The notes beneath the pieces were generated by a model. It was given only the letters and a program-made list of their open reading frames with translations. It had not been told where the DNA came from and searched no databases. DNA of 49,663 nucleotides, taken from positions 1 to 49,663 of the forward strand of contig CADABS010000010.1 in the NCBI GenBank assembly GCA_902786245.1. The letters run 5' to 3'. The translations under genes were made by a program, and so were the position numbers. The stretch is from an uncultured Erysipelotrichaceae bacterium. GTDB lineage: Bacteria; Bacillota_I; Bacilli_A; Erysipelotrichales; Erysipelotrichaceae. This document shows positions 7,954-33,280 of the stretch, piece by piece; position 1 is the stretch's first letter, and every line of letters begins with the position of its first letter.

Positions 7954-8967
7954 TTATTCGCCGTCAAAGACCAGGATCTGATCTTCTACATACATCTGCT
8001 GGAGGGAACCTGCCTGGGCAATGATATGCTTGCCGGCAAAGTCTTCGAGCGTCTTGTACTGGTCTGCCTTGTCAGCCGGAACGATCAGTGTGTGGAAGGA
8101 AACATCATCATCGCCTGTATAGCCGACGGAGAGTTCAAATGCATCTGCTCTGTCTGCCTTCCATCCGAATCCGGAAATGCCGAGGTCGACTTTGCCGGTA
8201 TCAACTGCTGTCAGAACTGCGCTGAAGTCCATTGTTTCGATCTTGAGGCTGACACCGAGGCAGTCAGCGATGTACTTCGCCAGCATCATTTCACAGCCCC
8301 ATACTGTTCCGTTGTCATCGATCCATTCATTGGCCGGATAGTCCGGAGAAGTCGCAATGACCAGAACGCCTTTGTCCAGAACGCTCTTGAGAACGCCGTC
8401 TGCGCTGGAGAGATCCAGTTCCGGCTTCTTGAGATCTGCTGTATCCAGCAGATATGCATATGTGTCATCGATGGCTGTTTTCGGTGTGACATCATAGTCG
8501 CCTACAATTGCAATTGCATCTTCGTCTTCTGTCGCAGACTGGATCTTGGCAATTGCCGTCCACCATGTATAGTAGCTGTCTTTATATCCGTCCGGAACGT
8601 TTCCGCTCGGTGTTGTTGTCGCGGTTTCGATGATCTTGTTGACGGCTTCGATCAGAGATGCTTCGCCTTTTTTCGCAGCTGCGACAGTTCCTTCATAATC
8701 GCCGTACATTGTCAGATCGAAGTTGATGCCGGACATTGCGAACTTGCCGTCGGACTGATCGACATAGTTCTGTGCGGTTGTACCGTCCAGAGCAACTGCG
8801 TCGCACTTGTTTGAATTCAGCGCCAGGATTGCCTGGTCAAGACTGGTAACCAGTTCCAGTTCCGTTGCTTTCTTTGTGTCAGCTGTATCGGCTGTGCCGG
8901 AGGAACATGCGGTCATGCTCAGAGCCATCAGAGCTGCCATTGCGGATTTCATCAGTTTGTTTGTCAT
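7954..8967 (-). CDS. Amino-acid-binding lipoprotein with lobes in permuted order
   Basis: This 337-residue protein is the solute-binding subunit (SBP_bac_3 type) of the importer. Residues 1-21 form a lipoprotein signal ending at Cys21 (LSMTAC). The part that is normally C-terminal (TSLDQAILAL, CDAVALDGTTA, AAAKKGEASLIEAVNKII) comes first, at about 36-113. The part that is normally N-terminal (GVLVIATSPDYPANEW, the DFSAVLTAVDTGKVDLGISG block, then LEDFAGKHIIAQAGSLQQMYVEDQ) comes last, at about 199-330. The break falls at the second hinge crossing, and a linker of about 80 residues joins the lobes. So it reads as a circular permutation or a remnant of a tandem duplication. Both lobes look intact. 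An AAGGAG site precedes the ATG. Expression should depend on the T-box upstream. Confidence 0.88.
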   Translation of the reverse strand: MTNKLMKSAMAALMALSMTACSSGTADTADTKKATELELVTSLDQAILALNSNKCDAVALDGTTAQNYVDQSDGKFAMSGINFDLTMYGDYEGTVAAAKKGEASLIEAVNKIIETATTTPSGNVPDGYKDSYYTWWTAIAKIQSATEDEDAIAIVGDYDVTPKTAIDDTYAYLLDTADLKKPELDLSSADGVLKSVLDKGVLVIATSPDYPANEWIDDNGTVWGCEMMLAKYIADCLGVSLKIETMDFSAVLTAVDTGKVDLGISGFGWKADRADAFELSVGYTGDDDVSFHTLIVPADKADQYKTLEDFAGKHIIAQAGSLQQMYVEDQILVFDGE

Positions 8968-24400: not shown

Positions 24401-24657
24401 GTTATTTCTTCCGGTGTTTCTTCAACCGGCTGTTCACTGGTTTCAGTGACATCTTCAGCCGGTATTTCCAGTTCTACGGTTTCCTGATCAGCTGCCTGTT
24501 CTTCCGGCATTTCCGCATATACTTCCGTATCATCGGGGAGCTCTGTAGCTCTCAGCATACGGTCTGTGCCGCCGAAAAGGCTGTAAGTGATGACCAGCAC
24601 TGCGGCCAGCATTCCCAGCAGGATCCTCTTCATAAGTCTGCGAACACTTTTCTTCAT
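9478..24657 (-). CDS. Giant 5059-residue repeat surface protein (MBG-like repeats, membrane-anchored)
   Basis: Parts in order: basic N-terminus and hydrophobic signal/anchor (about 10-30); a Pro/Thr/Glu stalk of 10-residue repeats (about 84-220); a beta-rich domain (222-356); two Big_2 Ig-like domains (about 360-535); a unique domain (540-700); an InlB-type B-repeat (about 705-740) and MucBP-like stretches to 860; several MBG/YDG-like modules (865-1275); twenty two-part units averaging 174 residues (about 1275-4760); a MucBP-like domain (VRFVDEDGNEL) to about 4830; a Pro/Glu repeat; the phrase EIPLARASYWALVNL; and three membrane helices split by acidic tails. Such proteins act as adhesins or wall stalks; that role is inferred. 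There is no LPXTG motif, so the C-terminal helices probably anchor it. The start overlaps the previous stop (ATGA). The frame is open throughout, with no sign of decay. Confidence 0.93.
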   Translation of the reverse strand: MKKSVRRLMKRILLGMLAAVLVITYSLFGGTDRMLRATELPDDTEVYAEMPEEQAADQETVELEIPAEDVTETSEQPVEETPEEITVDEPEETPSETETPEETPSETDTPEETPTEPETPAETPTEPETPEETPTEPETPAETPTEPETPAVTPAEPETPAVTPTEPETPAETPSEPETPTETPAEPEIPAVTPSEPETPAETPTEPETPAETPTEPAEEKPALTVTELYTTASDGAYVYVQAEGGAFPEGTYVNAVVVSSAHAQSTVENMIEPGRELVDLVVYDITIHDATGAEIEPSFPVFVSIGLSGVNAGEETSVYHIEESGEAQKMGQSQNGDAVGFTTDHFSQYAVASTASTPESSTYTMTTGESFTIPVPAAYTGKTCKWSSSNSNTASVSTSGTVTARRAGTAEITLQVLNRSGWFSSYETVGTYTIIITDPVQEPAISVTPGSVSLGEIGATAQLRASLTAISAENTIIWTSSDTSVVTVENGIVTARGQGTAVITASVSPEEDELYGNVYSDQAQVTVTFTGYNLYHYALIPGADANIQTSDANTRWFGLGVTKIYGTKSPSSLGKGKSVSEYVTGETVKALYPDITYAGQTYKYAPEGSAESGMQGYYTVQPFRTIVASGANSGYNNYNPTASALSFHLDYTCVLNEKDFVSANFAVMNAGGSAYESLTDYSQRFLSGTARSSIKKPSSSAVPSSKTVNGITYAFDGWYEDAACTAAASFTGELNANTTFYGRYVPVNARYRVEYIYDGIPDAAMTDVLGPVEIGTVITSYTDKPRTGFTFSEKTPASLTVSANEADNVIRVYYTKRLVSYTVGYYLNGTDIPVAPSRTASVRYFETGSGDLLEIEGYTPVDPSVSRKEMEISSPGMEIRFDYYKNVTVQADELHVPYNGAQQTVSGFTCSVPDAEFENISASRSEKNAGTYPVEFAEGTVGKTDLSRRYIITAAEAGVLEITRIPAEIAAMNMAKNYGDEDPQLRVSFSGLLSGDSLEYELQRDPGEDAGEYTIHVNAEAVQENYDVTVKEAVFTIAKSGEMALQADGWEGTYDGTLHRVRAAATVKDGTVIEYSTDGGSTWSRTAPSRRDAGEDTVRVRALNDNYETVYADAVLKVLPAEVTVRAKNAQKTYGSADPVFEAEVQGLFGSDTVAYELVRDEGEDAGTYPVRVQAEEEQGNYHVTMTDGELTIVPAVLSLNAITVQRMYSGQPLSGGVSAEMPAGTKLTYTADGETWTEEAPQLLHAGSLTYTVRAENPNYETAVASGTLSVTPRRIILTSASQTKEYDGQPLVNKDIYVSGDGFAGSEGMDFTVTGTQTAAGASRNTFTYAFHEDTNAADYTVETVFGTLNVTDRETKYAITVKAADHTLVYSGAPQKAEGLEQTVFTINGASYRVAGMSAALTKTNAGTYRIPVQGTAVVTDAEGNDVSAQFAVEREDGVLTVAARHIVLRSADAGKMYDGGPLTTAAWENSGVSVAEGSFAEGEGVIIRSAGSQTLPGRSPNTFTWIAAEGTLAGNYDIETQFGTLQVLSRSDAEKYTVTVQASSAEAVYTGSPVSVSGIVSDTFAYNGYTYRIEGLSSHAEMTDAGRMINEVTGEAVIRDSEGNDVTGQFRIEKEPGTLVIRPRQVILTSGSVRMQYDGSEARNSDILVGGEGFAEGEGADYSVTGVQSGIGSSDNIFTYVLQENTRASNYAIGCVYGRLEIIDRENKYEITVRSAGKEILYDGQTHTVSGISASSFTIEGNTYTLSGLSAAATGRNAGVYPNTITGTPTVTDAKGNDVTSQFRINTYSGELKITKRSVILTSASAEKEYDGLPLSDSTVTVSGDGWAKDEGAVYTVSGSRTITGSSANTFAWSLNENTDKDNYSISAFEGTLTVTSRSALYEITVQAAGGNYVYNGKVQRVSGLIQDTFTISSKTFTVHGLQASASAADAGTYTSTVQGTPAVLDEEGNDVSDQFSVHTVPGTMVIEPRRVTLTSMNASKVYDGSPLHTGNYPDSGVSVTNGSFVQNEGVSVRLTAERTLPGTVRNTFEYTLNPGTDPDNYLITAEYGSLTVMNRSHDALYPAVVSAVSTDVLYDGQPHGVHTLKGLTAGADGHVYYIKGLEVNEEQIRAGVYTARITGEASVFDSEGNDVTEQFSVARENGTLTIRRRSVVMTSSTVSREYDGTPLTEDHIRISGDGFAANEGADYVVTGSQTVVGSSPNTFSYTLHPGTYANDYDITRQTGMLTVGRREKGWPVVLQAASGEYMYDGSEHTVSGIEPMEITIGNNRYTVEGISASATGRNAGTYSADITGTPVIRDSAGNDVTDAFDISLRSGTLTVRRRSLVLTSSSAVKEYDGTPLVSADVTAGGDGFAPGEGAVYTVTGTQTVTGSGDNVFTYTFNENTEKDNYAVTVHTGRLTVTGRQAAFGITLRAKSSETVYDGSEQTVSGFDTLEFTVNGKNYTVAGVSASVSAVHAGTYDNVISGTPQVLDENGNDVTAEFAVSCISGQLKIAPRNVTLTSASDEKEYDGLPLQNDEVAAEGFAEGEGASFAVSGSITLPGSAPNSFTYTLNENTSAADYNIEVQPGTLRISSRTEAYPLHMQARSGEFMYDGTEKSVSGFETDTFTVNGAQYKVSGVAASVSGTDAGSYDTAIEGTPTVTDSSGADVTDQFAVEIEPGSLTVNRRTVILTSATAAKEYDGLPLRDETVTVSGDGFAAGQGADYRVEGTRTIPGTVSNTFTYALHENTKAENYDIRTDAGTLTVTDRAEPLQLTLQAAGGTFVYDGSEHSVSGLRRDTYTVNGRQFSVRDAEASVQGRGAGTYVNAITGKPRVIDENGNDVTLQFSLRTESGTMVIEKRKVILTSASASREYDGTALKDDSVTVGGDGFAEGEGAVYTVSGSQTIPGSSANAFTYTLNSNTEAGNYQITTVPGILQVDSRAEAVHLQVSANSGSFLYDGSEKTVSGFETTEFTVNGSRYRVTGLEASVSAVHAGTYDNIITGTPKVEDENGNDVTEQFMVDTENGRLTVSRRKAVLTSASASKEYDGTALKNDSVTVSGDGFAEGEGAVYTVSGSQTIAGSSPNSFSYTLNGNTDPADYEISTVFGTLSVTGRQNLYPVTVRSSSGTYLYDGTKKSVSGFETVQFRAGTQMYTVEGIQASVSAVHAGNYENIIEGTPVIRDSEGNDVTDQFSVRCENGVLSVGQRQLVLTSGSAMKEYDGTDLRNSEIIVSGDGWAENEGADYTFSGVQRIPGSSQNAFAYTFRNNTLASDYAVTANAGILQVAPRASLYEITVSANSGTFLYDGSEHAVDGIEEDTFEIEGNTYHIEGLQAAGKARDAGNYDVFVEGTPVVRDAQGNDVTEQFRVHIRSGRMIVEPRTVVLTSATAFRQYDGTALTDDGIAVSGDGWAEGEGAVYTVSGSQTVPGTADNAFSYVLNEGTKAGNYNIRTVFGTLSVSSRDEQYELTMRGIRETSMYDGSEKTVSGFETEEFTVNGSRYTVEGIVSEAKGTGAGTYAAKITGTPVVRDDQGNDVTSQFVIHYESGSLTVLPRTVLLVSGSARKEYDGIPLRNTSVTVGGDGWAENEGAVYTVSGTRTAAGTGTNTFTYQLYANTNAENYDIRTEYGSLEIIDRSAKYEITLRASGGSALYDGTVHTVSGFETTEFTVDGNTYTVEGVNAQGSGRSAGVYPVAITGTPAVRDSEGNDVTAQFAVHCENGSLRIAKRKLILTSASASAEYDGNPLRAPEVTAGGDGFAEGEGAVYTVSGERILPGSSENIFDYRFTGAASAADYDVTVVYGTLDVSKRSEAYAITLKSNGDEVLCDGSEHSVSGFETTEFTAGGHTYTVEGVSAAASAVHAGTYFNTITGIPAVKDENGNDVTEQFTVNTVTGILKVKARDVTLMSGSADKEYDGDPLTMDTVTVGGDGFAENEGASFTVTGTQTRTGSSDNTFTYTLNEGTDPSDYIFRVRNGVLSVHGRTSKYEIAIRSNGGTAVYDGTAHSVSGLCEDTAVINGHTYTIANVTASAEAVNAGTYTAAITGTPVILDEEGNDVTEEFVIHLEPGVLQILRRSVSLVSASAEKQYDGSPLAAPEVIIGGDGFAAEEGISYEVTGTQTAPGISANPFTYTFNEGTDPSNYDITESDGVLQVHSRDAKYIISLESIGGTFTYDGTVHTLNQLKSTRFGIGSETYTVSGMSAFASAVHAGSYPVLITGTPVVRDSNGIDVTSEFMIVTVPGTMTVEKRNVTLRSRDAAAFYNGMPVYDSEIVIGGDGFVRGDGVTCSVSGSRTLPGISENVFTYTLNEGTRAEDYNIASEFGSLTVYSRPDTARYEIAVKAANGSWVYDGSTHTAEGVSTVYGPADSEGVLHIKADGVDYTLRGLQASASAKDAGTYAVNVTGTPAVYDSQGNDVTAQFLIRTESGRMDIRRRSVILTSGSVRTVYNGREAVNETVEVSGDGWAENEGADYAFSGGRSLSGISPNAFTYTLKEGTDENNYDITTVFGEINVVPRTVKYEITVTARSGEYLYDGSTHTLSGLINSRFTVDGNTYTIRGLSASGSGRNAGVYPVTFSGIASVIDSEGNDVSDEFAVHITDGTLTVRPRTVILTSASAEAEYSGTPLQAAEITVSGDGWADGEGAVYHTGAVRILPGTSANTFTYRLNPDTDAANYIIQTAAGTLNVYSRNVRYRIEMQANSDQVLFDGEEHSVEGFEKEDFVIDELSYGVSGLNAFAAGIDPGIYTTEISGDAMVSDLTGADVTDQFAVIVENGRLTITDTYLLTVRFVDEDGNELAPPYTGRYAAGEAFGPVRAPEITGMLSDYDSVRSDEKGMPAHDLTIDIIYRPLTVQPAEPDEPAPGDQETVPEEPGEPVPGDQETVPEEPGEPVPGDQETVPAPEDAVPAVQPGTEVRPLDPSKETAAEVHVDEETGEVTLTEIEDTEIPLARASYWALVNLVTVVLDIIAAVILCIFAWLIGRKKETEEEEESEERTQIEEQEDQDEEEEDRKHRVILPLASVITAFVAVIIFLVTEDMRSPMVYTDRWTILMIILAIIEFVIAFVGMRNEKQEEEDQPQEQE
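10028..10162 (-). repeat. Three 45-bp direct repeats in the giant gene
   Basis: Three adjacent 45-bp units (10028-10072, 10073-10117, 10118-10162) encode the repeat EPGEPVPGDQETVPE. The first two are nearly identical and the third differs at several bases. Such short, near-exact repeats can change number by slippage. They form a proline-rich spacer before the membrane anchor. Confidence 0.85.
10378..20834 (-). repeat. Twenty tandem A+B repeat units of about 520 bp
   Basis: Each unit averages about 174 residues. Part A follows the pattern LTSASxxKEYDGxPL, a central (S/G)GDGFAEGEGAxYTVSGSQT, then FTYTLNxxTxxxNY. Part B follows YEITVxAxSGxxxYDGSxHTVSGF, then YTVEG, AGTY and ITGTPxVxDxxGNDVTxQF. 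The YDG-like core of part A occurs near 20788, 20267, 19730, 19210, 18690, 18151, 17632, 17114, 16600, 16080, 15562, 15042, 14525, 14010, 13490, 12965, 12448, 11930, 11371 and 10846. Protein identity between units is moderate and the DNA has diverged, so the array is old rather than a recent expansion. The pattern resembles MBG/YDG immunoglobulin-like modules. Confidence 0.9.
24008..24395 (-). repeat. 30-bp repeats encoding a Pro/Thr/Glu stalk
   Basis: About thirteen imperfect 30-bp units encode TEPETPAETP and close variants. The segment follows the signal region and would form an extended, acidic, wall-spanning or spacer stalk. Some neighbouring units are almost identical in DNA, so copy number may vary between strains. 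Confidence 0.85.
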
Positions 24658-24815
24658 ATCTGTTCCCTGCTTTCTAAGTACTCCGCAAAATCTCTGTATG
24701 TCTGTTCAAGTTCTTTTTCTTCTTTGCGATACTGACGCTGCCGGATCAGAAACAGAACCGCCAGCGCTGCCATGAAGCACACCGGAATGATATCCAGCAG
24801 ATCAGGCATTCTCAT
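24654..24815 (-). CDS. Small single-pass membrane protein (53 residues)
   Basis: The product starts MRMPDLLDIIP, has one membrane helix at about residues 9-24 and a charged, helical C-terminal tail. An AAGGA site lies 7 nt before the ATG at 24815. The stop overlaps the start of the giant gene as ATGA, and the start lies inside the end of the gene before it, so translation is probably coupled on both sides. No family is recognised. A role in assembly or membrane handling of the giant protein is only a guess from position. Confidence 0.7.
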   Translation of the reverse strand: MRMPDLLDIIPVCFMAALAVLFLIRQRQYRKEEKELEQTYRDFAEYLESREQI

Positions 24816-24957
24816 AGGCTGTTCCTTCTTTCTCTTCAAATCTTTTCCGCAGCGTTTTTTTCTGTCTGCTTTTTCTGAATAAACGGTATATCTCAAAAAC
24901 CGCGAAAACGGCAAAAGATGCCGCCATCAGCGCAATGGCCGCAATTTCTCTGTTCAT
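24802..24957 (-). CDS. Small single-pass membrane protein (51 residues)
   Basis: This reading frame, short enough to be missed by usual length cut-offs, encodes MNREIAAIALMAASFAVFAV followed by a strongly basic segment (RLFRKSRQKKTLRKRF) and a short acidic end. One membrane helix (about 5-21) is expected with the basic tail inside the cell. Its ATG overlaps the stop of the gene upstream (ATGA), a GGGGAAAAG ribosome site lies just before it, and its end overlaps the next gene by 14 nt. This tight packing supports it as a real gene. Function unknown. Confidence 0.65.
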   Translation of the reverse strand: MNREIAAIALMAASFAVFAVFEIYRLFRKSRQKKTLRKRFEEKEGTAYENA

Positions 24958-25334
24958 GTCTTTTCCCCGCTTTCCCGGTTCCGGAATTCTTCTTCCGCTT
25001 CCACTGCTTTCATCCGCAGTGCATCGATCTGTTTTTCCCGTTCCAGGCAGTACACCGCATACGCGCAGGAGGAGACAAACATCATGCCGGCAAGAACCAG
25101 ATGCCGGGTTTCTCCGCGGCCCTGATCCGGAAAACCGGCCAGCGGTATTTCCGCTTCTTCGATTTCTTCTGCCGCGATTTCCTCAACAACGGTGATTTCA
25201 ATGGTTTCCTCTTCTGTTTCTTCCTCTTCATCCGCATAGACATGCATGTTCAGAACAGCTGCGGTAAAAAGCAGTATCAGCAGAAACAGGAAACGCATCC
25301 GATGCATTATTTTTTTCGGATTGATCTGATTCAT
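24954..25334 (-). CDS. Small exported protein with acidic domain and sortase-like C-terminal signal
   Basis: The 126-residue product has a basic start and hydrophobic signal (about 13-34, ending near VYADEE), a Glu-rich stretch (about 35-60), the phrase AEIPLAGFPDQG (about 61-72), a second membrane helix (about 79-95) and a long charged tail. The phrase matches the common Firmicute order IPLA-x-LPxTG with FPDQG in place of LPxTG, and the IPLA part recurs in the giant protein. So it may be a variant sorting signal or a simple membrane anchor; the 30-residue tail is long for a sortase substrate. An AAGGGGGG site precedes the ATG and the gap to the upstream gene is 9 nt. Function unknown. Confidence 0.75.
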   Translation of the reverse strand: MNQINPKKIMHRMRFLFLLILLFTAAVLNMHVYADEEEETEEETIEITVVEEIAAEEIEEAEIPLAGFPDQGRGETRHLVLAGMMFVSSCAYAVYCLEREKQIDALRMKAVEAEEEFRNRESGEKT

Positions 25335-25343
25335 AGGCCCCCC

Positions 25344-26567
25344 TTATCCCTTTTTCAGGGTCATGGCCAGGTGCAGTGTATTGCCGATATGATCGGGTAT
25401 ATAAACATCAAGATTCTCTTTCGGGCGCCCGAAAACGATTTCCCCGCTTTCTTCTTCCCAGCGCAGCGGCAGGATCTTTTCTCCCGCCGGATTCAGGGCA
25501 TAGACACCTCTGAAACGCACGCCTATTCCTTCATCCTCCACATGCAGAACAACTTCCTGCGCAGTGACTTTGCTGTCGAGAAGACGCGGTGCGCTGCAGT
25601 CGGCTTCGGTCACTGTCTGCACGGTGCTGACAGACTGCCGGTTGATCAGTTCCACCTCGATCTTCATTTCGCCATTGCGTACCGGCTCAACGGTAAATGT
25701 CCTTGCCGAGGCTTCATATACCGGCAGAGCGGATTTTCCCATAAACGCCCTGACGCTCCGCAGCGGCAGAAGCGACCGCACATCGATCGTATATTCAGGG
25801 AGTCCCCGGGTTCCGCCGGAAGCAGCAGATACGGAATACTCCGGCAGAAAAAACAACAGCGGCAGAGCGGCAAACAGAATCATCAGTACGGTCAGTACCG
25901 ATCTCTGCATGGAAAAGCGTTCTTTGCGGTATACGGTATAGGAAGCCAGGGCTTCCAGAGGCACCTTGTTCTCCTTGGCGCCGCAGGCACGGAACACATC
26001 TTCAAGGATCACCGCCGCATCCGTTGCCTTCATGCGGGCATCCGTGCGGCTGATCTTCTCAATGTTTCCTGCCGGCAGACCGCATCCGCCTTCCCGGTGC
26101 AGATGGCTGATGCCGTGTTTCAGACACCGCTTCACCATGGAAACCGGGATATTCAGATGGCCGGATATCTCCGAATCCGGATAGTCCTGGGCATAATGCA
26201 TGAAGAGCACCTGCGACTGCAGCACCGGCAGATTCATGATCTGCATGACTGTACAGGTACTGTTCTGTACCTGTACCGGGGTGCCGCTGTCCGGCACGCA
26301 CAGATCTGCGTCCATGCATTTCTGCACGCATATACGGTATGCCCATGGCATGAAAAGGTCCTTGTTCTGCAGATACGGCAGATGTTCATGGATTTCGGTC
26401 CATATCTCCCGCATCATCCGCAGCGACATTTCCCTGTCCTGTGCCATGGCGAAAACATATGTATACATGCGGGATGATGCCGCAGCGTACAGTTCTGCAA
26501 AAAAATCGCTGTTTCCGCAGGCCCGCACTGCAAGATCATTCAGATATGCCTGATCCAGTTTTTCCAT
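25344..26567 (-). CDS. ECF-sigma-like protein fused to a membrane helix and extracytoplasmic domain
   Basis: The first 160 of 407 residues look like an ECF sigma factor: region 2 at about 12-80 (FFAELYAAASSRMYTYVFAM, then FMPWAYRICVQKCMD) and region 4 at about 101-155 (LPVLQSQVLFMHYAQDYPDSEISGHLNIP, the helix-turn-helix, split here as LPVLQSQVLF and DSEISGHLNIP). A linker leads to one membrane helix (about 223-241) and an outer beta-rich domain ending in YIPDHIGNTLHLAMTLKKG. Normally sigma factor and membrane anti-sigma are separate proteins; here sensor and DNA-binding parts are in one chain. Activation by cleavage or by direct membrane tethering are both possible. The ATG at 26567 was chosen over a GTG at 26591; its ribosome site (GGGTAAAT) is weak. 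Target promoters are unknown. Confidence 0.8.
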   Translation of the reverse strand: MEKLDQAYLNDLAVRACGNSDFFAELYAAASSRMYTYVFAMAQDREMSLRMMREIWTEIHEHLPYLQNKDLFMPWAYRICVQKCMDADLCVPDSGTPVQVQNSTCTVMQIMNLPVLQSQVLFMHYAQDYPDSEISGHLNIPVSMVKRCLKHGISHLHREGGCGLPAGNIEKISRTDARMKATDAAVILEDVFRACGAKENKVPLEALASYTVYRKERFSMQRSVLTVLMILFAALPLLFFLPEYSVSAASGGTRGLPEYTIDVRSLLPLRSVRAFMGKSALPVYEASARTFTVEPVRNGEMKIEVELINRQSVSTVQTVTEADCSAPRLLDSKVTAQEVVLHVEDEGIGVRFRGVYALNPAGEKILPLRWEEESGEIVFGRPKENLDVYIPDHIGNTLHLAMTLKKG

Positions 26568-26591
26568 ATTTACCCGATTTCTATATATCAC

Positions 26592-26641: not shown

Positions 26642-27343
26642 TTATTCTTTGATTATCATTCCGGAATGTGCCCGCCGGTCGGACAGAGCGACCAGTTCCG
26701 TCAGGGTATGCGCTTCTTCACCTTCCTGAAAAGCTCTTCCCGCCTGCCAGCGCAGAATCATATCCGGATGGCTCTGATTCCACTGGTCCGTGTTTTCTTC
26801 CATCATCGCAATCAGTCTGTTCAGCTTCTGCTCGGTGCATTTTTCAATGATCACCAGGAATTTGTTTCCGCCGTTGCGGCCGATAAATCCGTTTCCGTCA
26901 AAGGAGCGCTGCAGAATATCGGAAAAAGCCCTGATCGCGGTATCGCCGCCGGTATGTCCGTGTCTGGCATTGATTTCGCCCAGGCACGTCAGATCGATCG
27001 TCAGACAGCCCATCTCCCGGTTCAAAGGACGGTTTAAGTGGCGGCTGAGATAGACATCCGCACTGTAGCGGTTGGCAATCCCGGTCAGAGGATCGGACCA
27101 GACAGCGTTGTCCAGTTCAATATTCTCTCTGCGCAGTGCTGTATAGGAATTGAAATCATAGAACAGAAATGCCAGAGAGATGCCGGTCAGAATCCACAGC
27201 AGCAGACAGAGAAAACGGACATGGCTGTCTGCCGCAATCATCGCATACAGTTCGCCGTCGCTGAAAATGACCGTCAGCGCCGCTGCGGCAATCAGTATGA
27301 TCAGAACCATCTGTATGGTTTTTACAATGTCAAACCGCTTCAT
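26642..27343 (-). CDS. Membrane protein with degenerate GGDEF domain
   Basis: The 233-residue product has two membrane helices (about 10-28 and 43-62), a short coiled linker and a GGDEF-type domain from about residue 83 (DPLTGIANR). The signature motif reads GGNKF at 158-162 instead of GGDEF, which lacks the acidic residues needed for metal binding and catalysis. So diguanylate cyclase activity is unlikely; the domain more likely binds a nucleotide or a partner protein. The start overlaps the signal peptidase stop by 4 nt (ATGA). It sits with a second decayed GGDEF-like domain (gene at 28369) in the same operon. Confidence 0.85.
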   Translation of the reverse strand: MKRFDIVKTIQMVLIILIAAAALTVIFSDGELYAMIAADSHVRFLCLLLWILTGISLAFLFYDFNSYTALRRENIELDNAVWSDPLTGIANRYSADVYLSRHLNRPLNREMGCLTIDLTCLGEINARHGHTGGDTAIRAFSDILQRSFDGNGFIGRNGGNKFLVIIEKCTEQKLNRLIAMMEENTDQWNQSHPDMILRWQAGRAFQEGEEAHTLTELVALSDRRAHSGMIIKE

Positions 27344-27867
27344 GAGCCTGTCCCCGTTTCAAAATGCATGATGATTTTCCCTTTGATCTGTCTGCGGTTC
27401 ACTTCTCCGAATGTCCGTGAATCCATGGATACCTGCCGGTTGTCACCGAGCACAAAGACATTTCCTTCCCGGACGGTATACGGAAATATGACTGCCGATG
27501 TCTGTTCTTCCGTCACGCCGGAAGCATTTTCATCCGCAATGTCAGCGCCGTTGACCAGAACACTTCCGTCCCTGATGTCAACCGTATCGCCGCCCACGGC
27601 AATCACCCGCTTGACATAGTAGTCCCCGGCCGGCACCCGCATCGATACAACATCGCCCGGCATATATTCCGGAACAATGCGCAGATAGACAACGATGTCG
27701 CCGCTGTGAAAAGACGGCTTCATGGAGTCTCCGCCGATGATTGAGATACCGATGACGAACCGGAAGAGAACGAAAACAAGAACTGTCAGGATGATAAAAT
27801 GCATGGAATCATGAAGCCATTCCAGTTTTGACCCGTTGTATTTTTCCAGAATCCTTTTCTTTGCCAT
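27340..27867 (-). CDS. lepB: Signal peptidase I
   Basis: This 175-residue S26A peptidase cuts signal peptides from exported proteins. It has one N-terminal membrane helix (about 23-44), the nucleophile Ser48 in GGDSMKPS, the general-base Lys86 in YYVKRVIAVGGD, and the box E motif GDNRQVSMDSRTFG. This is the usual Gram-positive single-helix form. Placed inside a pilus/surface-protein operon, it may be dedicated to proteins made by that operon, as seen for signal peptidases beside sortase-pilus loci, but here no sortase is present. The gene follows the 155-aa protein by 24 nt and overlaps the GGDEF-type gene by 4 nt. Confidence 0.95.
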   Translation of the reverse strand: MAKKRILEKYNGSKLEWLHDSMHFIILTVLVFVLFRFVIGISIIGGDSMKPSFHSGDIVVYLRIVPEYMPGDVVSMRVPAGDYYVKRVIAVGGDTVDIRDGSVLVNGADIADENASGVTEEQTSAVIFPYTVREGNVFVLGDNRQVSMDSRTFGEVNRRQIKGKIIMHFETGTGS

Positions 27868-28368: not shown

Positions 28369-29595
28369 CTAGCGCATCAGTCCCTGTGCATCCGTATCAT
28401 GTCCGTAGATGACACTGTTGACATGATACTGCACACCGGTGCGCTGACGGCCGATGACAAAGTGCTCATTGATACGCTTCTGCACGATCCGGCAGTTTTC
28501 CAGCGTCGTATTGGCCAGCAGGACCAGATACTGTCCCTTGGAATAGCGGTTGATGACATCGGTGCGGCGCACAGATCTGTGAATAGCATCGTTCAGCCGC
28601 TCGGACAGTTCATCCCGGCGCGGTGAATCGCGCATCGGATTGCCCTTGGAATCGACGATCGTGCACAGCATCAGATATACGGACTGACCGCCTCTTTCCA
28701 GCATTCTTTCAATGACCTGATAGATACCCATGAAGACCGGATAGGAACAGATATAGCCGCCGGCTTCATCGCTTTTCTCGGAAAGATTGTACTGGATCTC
28801 ATCCAGAACTTCATACTGATGATCGATCTGCGCTCCCAGCTGCGAAAGCATTTCAAACATTCTGTCGCTCGGCCGCATGCCCTGTTCCTGCATGTAGTAG
28901 TCGACCGTATCCTCATACAGCTTCATCGCATCTTCATATCTGCCGGTGGCGACGATGGCCTCCATCGTGACGGTTTCCCAGTCGGACAGGGGCTGGATCA
29001 CACTGGCATAGCTGCCGAGTTCTTCCATCCGGGCAAATTCGCCGTTTTCCCGCAGCAGCGCTGCTGTCTCATCGACCAGTTCGATAAACAGGTTGCGGTA
29101 TTTGCGCGCTTCTTTCGCCACCCATACCTGGCTGATCTGCTGTTCCATAAACTCTCCGGTATACTGATGGATCGCATCCCAGCACATTTCCAGCTTCTTT
29201 GCCTTGTCTGTTTCCTTCCGGATCTCCATGGCCATCTGCTCAAATACATCCGCATCTTCACAGACTTCGATTTCATCCGTCCAGTAGAACATGCCTTCTT
29301 TCTGAATGATATAGTTCACATCCGGCAGTCCGAGTGCCTTCAGTTTTTTCTTGGCATTATAGACGACTGACTGCGCGGCATGATGAACATTGGTCAGATC
29401 CTTATTGCGGAAGAGCGTTTCTTCCAGCAAATCGCGGCTGACTCCCTTCTGTCCGTAATGAAGCAGTATCTGCATCAGATACACAAACTGCGATTCACTG
29501 GATTTGGACTTCCCGGTAATCAGCTTGCCGTTATACCGCATGGAAAATACACCGAATGTTTTTACATACAGAACATCTCTGCGTTCCGTTTCCAT
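28369..29595 (-). CDS. SARP/BTAD-type transcriptional regulator with C-terminal GGDEF-like domain
   Basis: The 408-residue protein starts with a winged-helix DNA-binding domain (about 8-105; YVKTFGVFSMRYNGKLI, then SRDLLEETLF and AAQSVVYNAKKKLKALG), followed by a bacterial transcriptional activator (BTAD) helical-repeat domain (about 110-245). The last 140 residues resemble a GGDEF fold: the usual RYGGDEFLVLL position reads RYSKGQYLVLL at about 350-360, so no cyclase activity is expected. This suggests a regulator whose output domain is tied to a nucleotide- or partner-sensing pseudo-enzyme. It lies 18 nt after pilT and is the likely local regulator of the operon. Confidence 0.85.
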   Translation of the reverse strand: METERRDVLYVKTFGVFSMRYNGKLITGKSKSSESQFVYLMQILLHYGQKGVSRDLLEETLFRNKDLTNVHHAAQSVVYNAKKKLKALGLPDVNYIIQKEGMFYWTDEIEVCEDADVFEQMAMEIRKETDKAKKLEMCWDAIHQYTGEFMEQQISQVWVAKEARKYRNLFIELVDETAALLRENGEFARMEELGSYASVIQPLSDWETVTMEAIVATGRYEDAMKLYEDTVDYYMQEQGMRPSDRMFEMLSQLGAQIDHQYEVLDEIQYNLSEKSDEAGGYICSYPVFMGIYQVIERMLERGGQSVYLMLCTIVDSKGNPMRDSPRRDELSERLNDAIHRSVRRTDVINRYSKGQYLVLLANTTLENCRIVQKRINEHFVIGRQRTGVQYHVNSVIYGHDTDAQGLMR

Positions 29596-29613: not shown

Positions 29614-30666
29614 TCAGATGCGCTTGACGATATTTTCATAATGCACGCAGTAGCCCAGAACTGTTTCTTTTGTGATTCTGCCTTCCTTATACAGTTTCAG
29701 CAGACTCCCGTCCATTGTATACATGCCCTGGTCCGCACCTGACTGCATTGCTGAATCAAGCTGATGAAGCTTTCCTTCCCGGATCATATTCTGAATGGCA
29801 GGTGTCATCTTGAGCACTTCGAATACCGGAATCTGTTTTCCTTCCTTATCCGGCACCAGCTGCTGGCAGACAATTCCCCGCAGGATCTGCGCCAGCTGGA
29901 TCTTGATCTGCTGCTGCTGCGAAGCCGGAAAGACATCAATGATCCGGTTGATGGTATTGGCTGCGCTGCTTGTATGCAGCGTACTGAACAGCAGAACGCC
30001 TGTTTCCGCTGCGGTGATCGCCGAAGAAATCGTGTCATAGTCCCGCATCTCACCCAGCAGAATTACATCCGGGCTTTCCCGCAGAGCCGAGCGCAGAGAT
30101 TCAAGATAGCCCGGTGTATCGATAAAGATTTCCCGCTGCGAGACGATCGATCTGTCATGGCGGTGGATATACTCAATCGGATCTTCCATCGTGATGATAT
30201 GGCAGGAACGGGTCCGGTTGATCCGGTCGATCATGCATGCCAGCGTCGTCGACTTGCCGGTCCCCGCTGCCCCGGTCACCAGCAGAAGTCCTTTATTGTT
30301 GTCCGCCAGAGACAGAACGCTTTCGGGAATGCCGAGCTTTTCAGGATCGGGCAGACCGAAATGAATGACCCGGATGACTGCCGCAAGCGAACCGCGCTGA
30401 CGGAAAATATTCACCCGGAAGCGGCCGAGCTCATAGATTGAAAACGAAAAGTCATCATCCGACCCGCTCTGAATGGCATCATCCTGGCGTCTGGCCAGGG
30501 AATAGATTCCATTGATCAGCACCTGGATGGAATCCGGCTTGAGAATATCGGATTCCAGACGGTTCTGCCGGCCTCTGCATTTGAGCGTCACCGGCAGCCC
30601 GGCAATCAGAAATATATCCGACGCGTCTTCATCAATTGCTTTTTTCAGTATTTCTTCAATCGTCAT
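29614..30666 (-). CDS. pilT: PilT-family pilus ATPase
   Basis: This 350-residue hexameric ATPase belongs to the type II/IV secretion family, PilT branch. Visible motifs are Walker A GAAGTGKST (about 132-140), the Asp box (IEYIHRHDRSIVSQREI), Walker B DVILLGEMRD (about 200-209), the His box TLHTSSAANTINRIIDVFP and the PilT-specific signature AIQNMIREGKLHQLDSAMQS. PilT normally powers pilus retraction while PilB powers extension. No PilB is encoded in the window, so this single ATPase may serve both directions or work with a partner elsewhere. It is flanked by pseudopilin-like genes (9 nt gap) and the BTAD regulator. Confidence 0.95.
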   Translation of the reverse strand: MTIEEILKKAIDEDASDIFLIAGLPVTLKCRGRQNRLESDILKPDSIQVLINGIYSLARRQDDAIQSGSDDDFSFSIYELGRFRVNIFRQRGSLAAVIRVIHFGLPDPEKLGIPESVLSLADNNKGLLLVTGAAGTGKSTTLACMIDRINRTRSCHIITMEDPIEYIHRHDRSIVSQREIFIDTPGYLESLRSALRESPDVILLGEMRDYDTISSAITAAETGVLLFSTLHTSSAANTINRIIDVFPASQQQQIKIQLAQILRGIVCQQLVPDKEGKQIPVFEVLKMTPAIQNMIREGKLHQLDSAMQSGADQGMYTMDGSLLKLYKEGRITKETVLGYCVHYENIVKRI

Positions 30667-32236: not shown

Positions 32237-33280
32237 TTATCCGATCGACCCCATCATGCCGATCAGCGGCAGCATGACACTGAGCAGCGTCATCGCAATC
32301 GTCACCATCAGAATTCCCGACAGCAGCGGTTCCACCGTATTGACCACCTGATCGACCTGACCCATGCATGATTCCTTCAGCAGCGAAGTCAGACGCTTCA
32401 GCACGGATTCCATATGTCCGCTTCTTTCGCCCGGCAGCAGCATTCTTCCATAGATCGGTTCATACAGTTCCTCATCATAGGCGGCCTGGGCAAAGCCGAT
32501 GCCTTCTTCCATCCGGGCTGCGCATCTTTTCAGTTTTTCTTCAACTCTGGGGCTGTCGGTCATCGCAATGGAATCCAGAACGGCATTGTCCTGCATTTCG
32601 CCGCTGGCCAGATACATTTCCAGGGCACTGGTAAATCTGAACATTGCCATTTTTTCCAGGATCGAAGCCGACGCCGGAAACTTCCACAGGAACTCTTCGA
32701 CCTGTTTCCGCTTTCCGCTGTTCCACAGCAGCAGTCCGGCTGTCATTGCGATGGCAAGAATGACCATGACAGCCAGGGCGATCCGGCAGAATGCATATGA
32801 CATATTGATATAGCGGTAGGAGGAAACGGAAAGACTGCCGGTCAGCCGTTCATAGACAGACGTAAAGGTCGGCAGGACCATGACCAGAAGCACCGCCAGG
32901 ACAACGATGATCATGGCGATCATCGACGCCGGATAGATCACGGCTCCACGGATCCTGTCAGCAATCGTTTTCTGATCGCGGTAATAATCGGAAAGCTGGA
33001 ACAGAACATCTTCCAGACGGCCGGTCGATTCTCCTGCTTCGATCATCTTCAGCGCATATTCCGGGAAGATGCCTGTGGCTTCCGCTGCTTCTTTCAGCGT
33101 CCGGCCTTCTCCCACCATCGACGCCATCTGATCCAACGCTTCCCCAAGCGGACCGGTCTGATGTTCCCCCTGGCGCAGCAGCGTGATTGCCTCATCGGTC
33201 TGTATGCCGGAGCGTACCATCATGCCCATGCTTTCGCAGAATGCGCTGACACCCAGCTGATCTAATTCCTTCTTTTTCAT
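32237..33280 (-). CDS. Type II secretion / type IV pilus platform protein (GspF/PilC family)
   Basis: This 347-residue inner-membrane platform protein has two T2SSF domains, about 10-130 (MGMMVRSGIQTDEAI, EAGESTGRLEDVL) and 210-335 (FTSALEMYLASGEM, LLPGERSGHMESVL), with membrane helices near 115-140, 165-190 and 315-340. Such proteins link the cytoplasmic ATPase to the growing pilin fibre. It is the only platform gene of the locus. The start is 9 nt past the transglutaminase-like gene and an AGGAGACGCTT-type ribosome site precedes the ATG. Confidence 0.93.
   Translation of the reverse strand: MKKKELDQLGVSAFCESMGMMVRSGIQTDEAITLLRQGEHQTGPLGEALDQMASMVGEGRTLKEAAEATGIFPEYALKMIEAGESTGRLEDVLFQLSDYYRDQKTIADRIRGAVIYPASMIAMIIVVLAVLLVMVLPTFTSVYERLTGSLSVSSYRYINMSYAFCRIALAVMVILAIAMTAGLLLWNSGKRKQVEEFLWKFPASASILEKMAMFRFTSALEMYLASGEMQDNAVLDSIAMTDSPRVEEKLKRCAARMEEGIGFAQAAYDEELYEPIYGRMLLPGERSGHMESVLKRLTSLLKESCMGQVDQVVNTVEPLLSGILMVTIAMTLLSVMLPLIGMMGSIG

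Follow-up and report, generated by a model that had tools for sequence, protein, structure and literature searches.

The window analysed here, a stretch of 49,663 nucleotides from an uncultured Erysipelotrichaceae genome, contains a gene whose product joins a sigma factor-like N-terminal part to a membrane helix and an outside domain in a single chain. The question raised by this locus is whether such a chain still initiates transcription or has become something else. The features of the gene, its product and the surrounding locus are collected in Table 1, and residue numbers refer to the 407-aa form of the protein unless stated otherwise.

Table 1. Coordinates of the fused gene, the parts of its product and the neighbouring genes in the window.
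Feature	Position	Strand	Basis or remark
Single-chain sigma/anti-sigma-like membrane protein	25344..26567	(-)	407 aa; ORF, Pfam, NCBIfam, hydropathy
Sigma region 2-like helices, eroded	26304..26552	(-)	residues 6-88; region 2.2 has R..R for D..Q; Sigma70_r2 not matched in Pfam
Shortened sigma2-sigma4 linker	26250..26303	(-)	W-to-EI[AS] spacing 58 vs 76-86 in comparison set
Sigma region 4-like helix-turn-helix	26091..26249	(-)	residues 107-159; Sigma70_r4_2 27.0 bits
Anti-sigma-like cytoplasmic helix	25932..26030	(-)	residues 180-212; homologous to N-terminal part of split-pair partner; model helix 181-196
Membrane helix	25845..25901	(-)	residues 223-241; hydropathy
Ectodomain, tandem Ig-like beta domains	25347..25844	(-)	AlphaFold model and Foldseek
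Membrane GGDEF-domain protein, degenerate GGNKF	26642..27343	(-)	constant upstream neighbour of fused gene
Signal peptidase I (Peptidase_S26)	27340..27867	(-)	Pfam and NCBIfam
BTAD (SARP-type) regulator, pilus gene row	28369-29595	(-)	degenerate GGDEF-like stretch at the C-terminus (PF00990 E 0.0027, below cut-off)
PilT-type pilus ATPase, adjoining type IV pilus genes	29614..30666	(-)	TIGR01420 over cut-off
PilC/T2SSF pilus assembly protein	32237..33280	(-)	profile match
Small exported-type protein, N- and C-terminal hydrophobic segments	24954..25334	(-)	constant in three full fusions
Small single-helix membrane protein	24654..24914	(-)	start uncertain
Giant surface protein, 5059 aa	9478..24657	(-)	downstream of module

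Architecture of the protein

The gene was read from an ATG at 26567 to a stop at 25344, with an alternative GTG start at 26591 yielding a 415-aa form, and the same protein is not encoded on the plus strand of 25344-26567. Pfam profile searches identified Sigma70_r4_2 at residues 118-163 of the 415-aa form with a score of 27.0 bits (curated cut-off 25.7, E 3.6e-6) and returned no Sigma70_r2 match at E<=1. The ECF models of NCBIfam matched regions 2 and 4 with a best E of 2.6e-10, all far below their curated cut-offs; the best stretches were 26-95 in one model and 115-166 in another, and region 2 was aligned weakly. The first-pass annotation had placed ECF regions 2 and 4 in the first ~160 residues, which holds for region 4 but is much weaker for region 2. 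Hydropathy analysis gave one strong hydrophobic segment, and this helix is predicted to be oriented N-in/C-out because the sequence YRKERFSMQR precedes it (positive-inside rule), as the annotated topology would have it.

An AlphaFold model, calculated from a 3-row alignment with a mean pLDDT of 58 and usable mainly for the ectodomain, displayed helices spanning residues 6-158 and 181-234, followed by strands between 243 and 402. The pLDDT was about 62-77 in sigma4 and mostly 62-84 as block means in the ectodomain, and fell below 50 for residues 1-94, the sigma2 fold being only poorly modelled. Searching the model with Foldseek returned tandem Ig-like domains (the SiiE adhesin 2yn3, filamin C and LdtMt2) with low TM-scores of 0.34 or less, which indicate the fold type only; at this level the ectodomain resembles tandem Ig-like modules. 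Profiles, hydropathy and model thus agree with the earlier description of a sigma-like part, one membrane helix and an outside beta domain in a single chain.

Such a chain had been considered unusual in the first-pass annotation, a view that does not survive the precedents. IutY of Pseudomonas putida (ECF243) is described as a sigma and anti-sigma in one polypeptide (PMC5411451, PMC8999054), the fused groups named are IutY, ECF36, ECF48, ECF52 and ECF53 (PMC8999054), and SCO4117, an example of the ECF48/ECF52/ECF53 type, is a single-chain sigma (PMC5826349). According to these papers, IutY resembles the present protein in that an ECF sigma domain inside the cytoplasm is joined to an extracytoplasmic anti-sigma part within one membrane protein, and the ECF48, ECF52 and ECF53 proteins resemble it as single-chain sigmas with one or more C-terminal membrane helices and an outside region (PMC8999054, PMC5826349). 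However, IutY is there described with a functional sigma domain, an outer-membrane receptor and activation by Prc and RseP, and the ECF48, ECF52 and ECF53 groups as actinobacterial, with zinc-finger (ZAS-type) and other outside domains and a working sigma, whereas the present protein has an eroded sigma half and an Ig-like ectodomain. Searches of the literature on ECF sigma factors and on Erysipelotrichaceae listed no paper describing this system, which does not prove that there is none, and such proteins may belong to an already published group. Single-chain sigma factors (IutY, ECF52/53) are known already; what is added here is a decay series and an expanded set of intact relatives.

Probable origin from an overlapping gene pair

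Sequence search found two full-length relatives, in genomes G204 (49% identical) and G232 (43%), besides shorter ones. A split relative was found in a goat-rectum MAG (L006, 33% identity in the best segment), where sigma factor and membrane partner are encoded by two genes that overlap, at the same locus and again preceded by the GGDEF neighbour. The TGA stop of the sigma frame (8004-8534) overlaps the GTG start of the membrane gene (GTGA), and this GTG stands six bases after GGAAGGAGG, a strong ribosome-binding-site-like sequence. The split is seen on one MAG contig, and a simple sequencing frameshift was rejected as its source on account of the position of the GTG behind the ribosome-binding-site-like sequence and of the overlapping stop. 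No internal ribosome-binding-site-like sequence was seen by eye at the junction in the window gene, G204 or G232.

The C-terminal halves of the seven members (profile A2) were aligned with the partner genes of four split pairs (profile A3) using hhalign, giving a probability of 98.4 and an E of 7.2e-15 over nearly the whole length, cytoplasmic helix included. Because the C-terminal half is homologous to separate partners and L006 has the two halves split, the protein is, by sequence comparison, a fusion of a sigma gene with that of a membrane anti-sigma-like partner, which would be the sigma factor's own; gene order and architecture suggest that the split-pair partner is an anti-sigma factor. 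The split pairs L054 and L056-L058 share with the window protein this nearly full-length homology and a Peptidase_S26 gene nearby (E 3.2e-33 in L057), and differ from it in consisting of two genes with an intact sigma. They lie divergent to DivIVA-like and signal peptidase I-like genes; in L057, the only one profiled, the DivIVA match was weak (E 4e-4, under cut-off).

Among 395 genomes drawn from the whole class, profile A2 at E<=1e-8 matched the window genome and one split-pair genome only; in a draw from the order, 15 of 315 genomes were matched at E<=1e-4, six of them at E<1e-80 and nine more weakly. The fused frames are open and free of stops in six genomes. Two further candidates, L004/G228 and L038, were rejected as relatives, since they match in the sigma part alone, have another C-terminus and lack a membrane segment. 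Both L038 and L004 combine an ECF-like sigma region with a long C-terminal domain, alike in two genera.

Erosion of the sigma half

The D..Q residues of region 2.2 are a core-binding contact of ECF sigma factors, and the linker between sigma2 and sigma4 threads the polymerase cleft. The former are replaced and the latter is shortened in the window protein (Table 1). Scored against 15 region 2 consensus positions, defined as those shared by 70% or more of the 67 comparison sequences, the window protein matches 7, the comparison set having a median of 13, a tenth percentile of 11 and a minimum of 5; the relatives keep 9 (G204), 8 (G232), 9 (L006), 2 (G202), 7 (G244) and 7 (G259), and the count alone is not decisive because the lowest comparison rows overlap the window clade. 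Of 16 region 4 consensus positions, 10, 9, 8 and 8 are kept in the window protein, G204, G232 and L006, against a comparison median of 14, a tenth percentile of 12 and a minimum of 6.

The cleanest evidence of erosion is the spacing, measured on the alignment, between the region 2.3 W and the sigma4 E-I-A, which is 46 in G204, 52 in G232 and 64 in L006, and which lies within the range given in Table 1 for all 71 comparison sequences, not all of them independent. The window protein falls below the shortest of these by 18 residues and its relatives by 12-30, and a hand count on the alignment with SigW (5wuq) gives 85 for the same spacing. The comparison set comprised 65 fused sequences, from 66 sigma matches with one 114-aa frame omitted, and 6 others, of which two fused ones (G107, G128) repeat rows of the 65 or share genomes with them; the region 2.3 W was placed by pattern in 67 of the 71 rows. 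These loci were picked for long frames, and the 64 of 66 with a membrane segment do not represent a genome-wide rate. Erosion may have begun before fusion, since the linker of L006, still split, is also shortened.

Pfam scores for Sigma70_r2/Sigma70_r4_2 were 42.6/50.8 and 31.3/51.2 bits in the standalone sigma factors L013 and L028, and 49.1/38.7, 51.3/30.3, 51.4/44.4 and 34.1/54.4 in the intact fusions L034, L035, L029 and L040. The corresponding values were 15.9/25.0 in L006, 13.1/34.0 in G232, none/27.0 in the window protein, none/18.1 in G204 and none/none in G202, G244 and G259. In these last three syntenic relatives sigma4 is absent by Pfam and a sigma2 remnant is kept. The G244 and G259 proteins, whose genomes are 74% and 62% complete, match the N-terminal part of profile A1, in which neither is included, with E 2.1e-14 and 6.8e-14, and are therefore sigma2 relatives without sigma4.

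The first-pass annotation had held that missing key residues of regions 2.4/4.2 would make the protein a sigma-like relic or a different membrane regulator; this now largely applies, as the region 2.2/2.4 consensus residues are missing. Since these residues are missing, the spacing is short and sigma4 is absent in three syntenic relatives, a working initiation factor appears unlikely from the sequence. The same three points count against a working membrane-tethered ECF sigma factor that is freed by cleavage of the ectodomain and then of the membrane helix, as in IutY, and activates its own adhesin or pilus genes. An IutY-like architecture (PMC5411451), the sigma4 score over the Pfam cut-off and the intact single-chain relatives of G128, which adjoin surface proteins and share an ECF-like promoter (see below), favour this alternative, but no exact copy of that promoter, TGAAC-N17-CGACTA, was found across the whole window, and it is regarded as unlikely. 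Allowing up to 2 mismatches and a spacing of 16-18, 21 sites were found on the minus strand and 9 on the plus strand; the sole site with 1 mismatch has a 17-bp spacing and is found on the minus strand at 28925, within a coding frame, and the other matches have 2 mismatches.

Membrane one-component regulators such as ToxR and CadC offer a second comparison, in which the sigma4 helix-turn-helix would bind DNA with the protein still membrane-bound and would not serve as a sigma subunit. The helix-turn-helix is indeed recognisable in four of the seven members (window, G204, G232, L006). However, G202, G244 and G259 have lost it and kept the rest together with the GGDEF neighbour, and the recognition-helix residues vary among the window protein, G204 and G232, leaving this possibility rather improbable.

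Identities between the window protein and G204/G232 are 46/39% in sigma2, 38/37% in sigma4 and 58/48% in the ectodomain. The lower conservation of the sigma regions would fit plain decay, in which a useful ectodomain carries along a sigma half without function. Against this stand the stop-free frames in six genomes and the comparison of G244 with G259, in which conservation is highest in the sigma2 remnant (83%, against 63% for membrane helix and ectodomain), and plain decay is accordingly given little credence; dS was saturated, and dN/dS was not decisive.

In PhyR a sigma-like domain serves as an anti-sigma decoy and is no longer used for initiation. A sigma mimic of similar logic, binding the anti-sigma of another sigma factor and freeing the latter, would account for a sigma-like domain kept under constraint in G244 and G259 without the promoter-binding parts, and other ECF matches do exist in the window genome (14 Sigma70_r4_2 matches). 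Yet no second partner of the required type was found in this genome, its single A2 match being the window gene itself. Furthermore, PhyR is a soluble response regulator without membrane helix or ectodomain, whereas no response-regulator part, and specifically no receiver domain, was among the Pfam matches of the window protein; the mimic is thus considered a distant prospect.

Locus and degenerate GGDEF partner

In the window, the same-strand row runs from the pilus genes through the BTAD protein, signal peptidase I, the GGDEF protein and the fused gene to two small membrane proteins and the 5059-aa surface protein, in keeping with the operon-like setting annotated earlier. G204 and G232 repeat the order of sigma-membrane fusion, two small proteins and large surface protein, with signal peptidase I and GGDEF genes before it, and no pilus genes were seen by eye in the ORF listing of their 20 kb stretches. 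In G202, G244 and G259 the fused gene is followed by another gene and then by frames identified by eye as PilC-, pilin- and PilT-like; the intervening gene is Transglut_core in L012, the one profiled. Altogether, pilus genes adjoin the fused gene in four of six genomes. An E[IV]PLA-type motif precedes a membrane helix in both the small exported-type protein and the giant surface protein of the window, and [IV]PLA is present in the small proteins of G204 and G232 too.

The signature of the GGDEF neighbour is GGNKF, GGNNF or GGNRY, with GGN invariant in all seven members. At E<1e-90 this partner was found in the same six of 70 genus genomes as the fused gene and at that level in none of the other 64, six co-occurrences that are not independent events, as the block shares ancestry. 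Two further genus genomes gave weak generic GGDEF matches (E 1e-27 and 4e-26).

Proposed function

The window protein is probably not an initiation factor, and may instead be a membrane sensor or docking protein of an adhesin module. The reading as a whole, that of a fused sigma descendant which has lost initiation and serves cytoplasmic docking and surface sensing, is assigned a probability of about 0.6. The sigma half of the window clade would no longer be able to recognise promoters, a loss supported, if not proven, by the missing region 2.2 residues, by a linker that has lost part of its length and, in three relatives, by the complete disappearance of sigma4, with the sigma2-type helices retained. 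These helices, together with the juxtamembrane helix, would form a cytoplasmic docking module whose target is probably the always-adjacent degenerate GGDEF membrane protein. The Ig-like ectodomain would read or hold a surface partner, either the adhesin or, where present, the pilus, and the state of surface assembly would be relayed to the cytoplasm with no sigma factor being released. A fuller scenario, in which linker and core-binding residues were lost around the time of fusion, sigma4 was lost in some lineages, and a constrained sigma2-type dock with the degenerate GGDEF protein couples the Ig-type sensor to the adhesin or pilus machine as a non-transcriptional membrane component, is put forward tentatively, at somewhat less than even odds. 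Both the sigma4 score over the Pfam cut-off, with a helix-turn-helix still recognisable in more than half of the members, and the lower conservation of the sigma regions relative to the ectodomain speak against the preferred reading.

Two overlapping genes, a fused chain and a fused chain without sigma4 constitute a stepwise series that would show how a transcription factor can become a membrane component; intermediates of this kind are rarely caught.

Intact single-chain sigma factors in related genomes

The search of 315 genomes of the order returned many sigma matches in long frames, among them unexpectedly many intact single-chain membrane sigma factors, mostly paired with surface proteins and often with one promoter type. 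In a count over 12 genomes, G128 had 76 Sigma70_r4_2 matches; among the 57 listed, 50 belonged to frames of 426-490 aa and the remaining 7 to shorter frames (hand count), and at least 50 single-chain ECF-membrane-ectodomain genes are present in this genome (L086-L088, L094-L126). A membrane segment follows residue 180 in 49 of 50 fused genes. The next same-strand gene product carries an N-terminal hydrophobic segment in 45 of the 50 and both N- and C-terminal segments in 41, compared with 47 and 14 of the 129 remaining neighbour pairs from these loci, and leucine-rich repeats were matched in the two surface proteins examined. The motif TGAAC-N17-CGACTA, derived from the same 50 sequences in which it was counted, stands upstream of 23 fused genes exactly and of 34 with up to 1 mismatch, always with a spacing of 17, as against 1 and 7 of 251 other genes and 0.0 and 0.7 in shuffled sequences. 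These G128-type chains have the appearance of functional membrane sigma factors that regulate themselves.

In G050, 11 fused genes were identified in the fetched stretches, 10 of them followed within a gap of up to 600 by a gene whose product has a hydrophobic segment at its N-terminus. In this group no clear ECF promoter was found, either ahead of the sigma genes or in the interval separating sigma from surface gene, where a weak TGAACC lead was present in 4 of 11. The chains of G128, G107 and G050 have the same order of parts as the window protein but, unlike it, an intact sigma2 and sigma4. The window-clade C-terminal half was matched to those of G107/G128 (94%, E 1.1e-7) over the last ~112 residues only; their link to the window protein is one of ectodomain homology, and the fusion may be independent. 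If a culturable relative is found, the assignment of one sigma factor to one surface protein becomes testable. In a genome of the same genus as the window (G226, L093), tandem genes, several copies lying adjacent to one another, were observed to encode proteins of ~800-1363 aa whose N-terminus is ECF-like and which have a membrane segment near residue 320.
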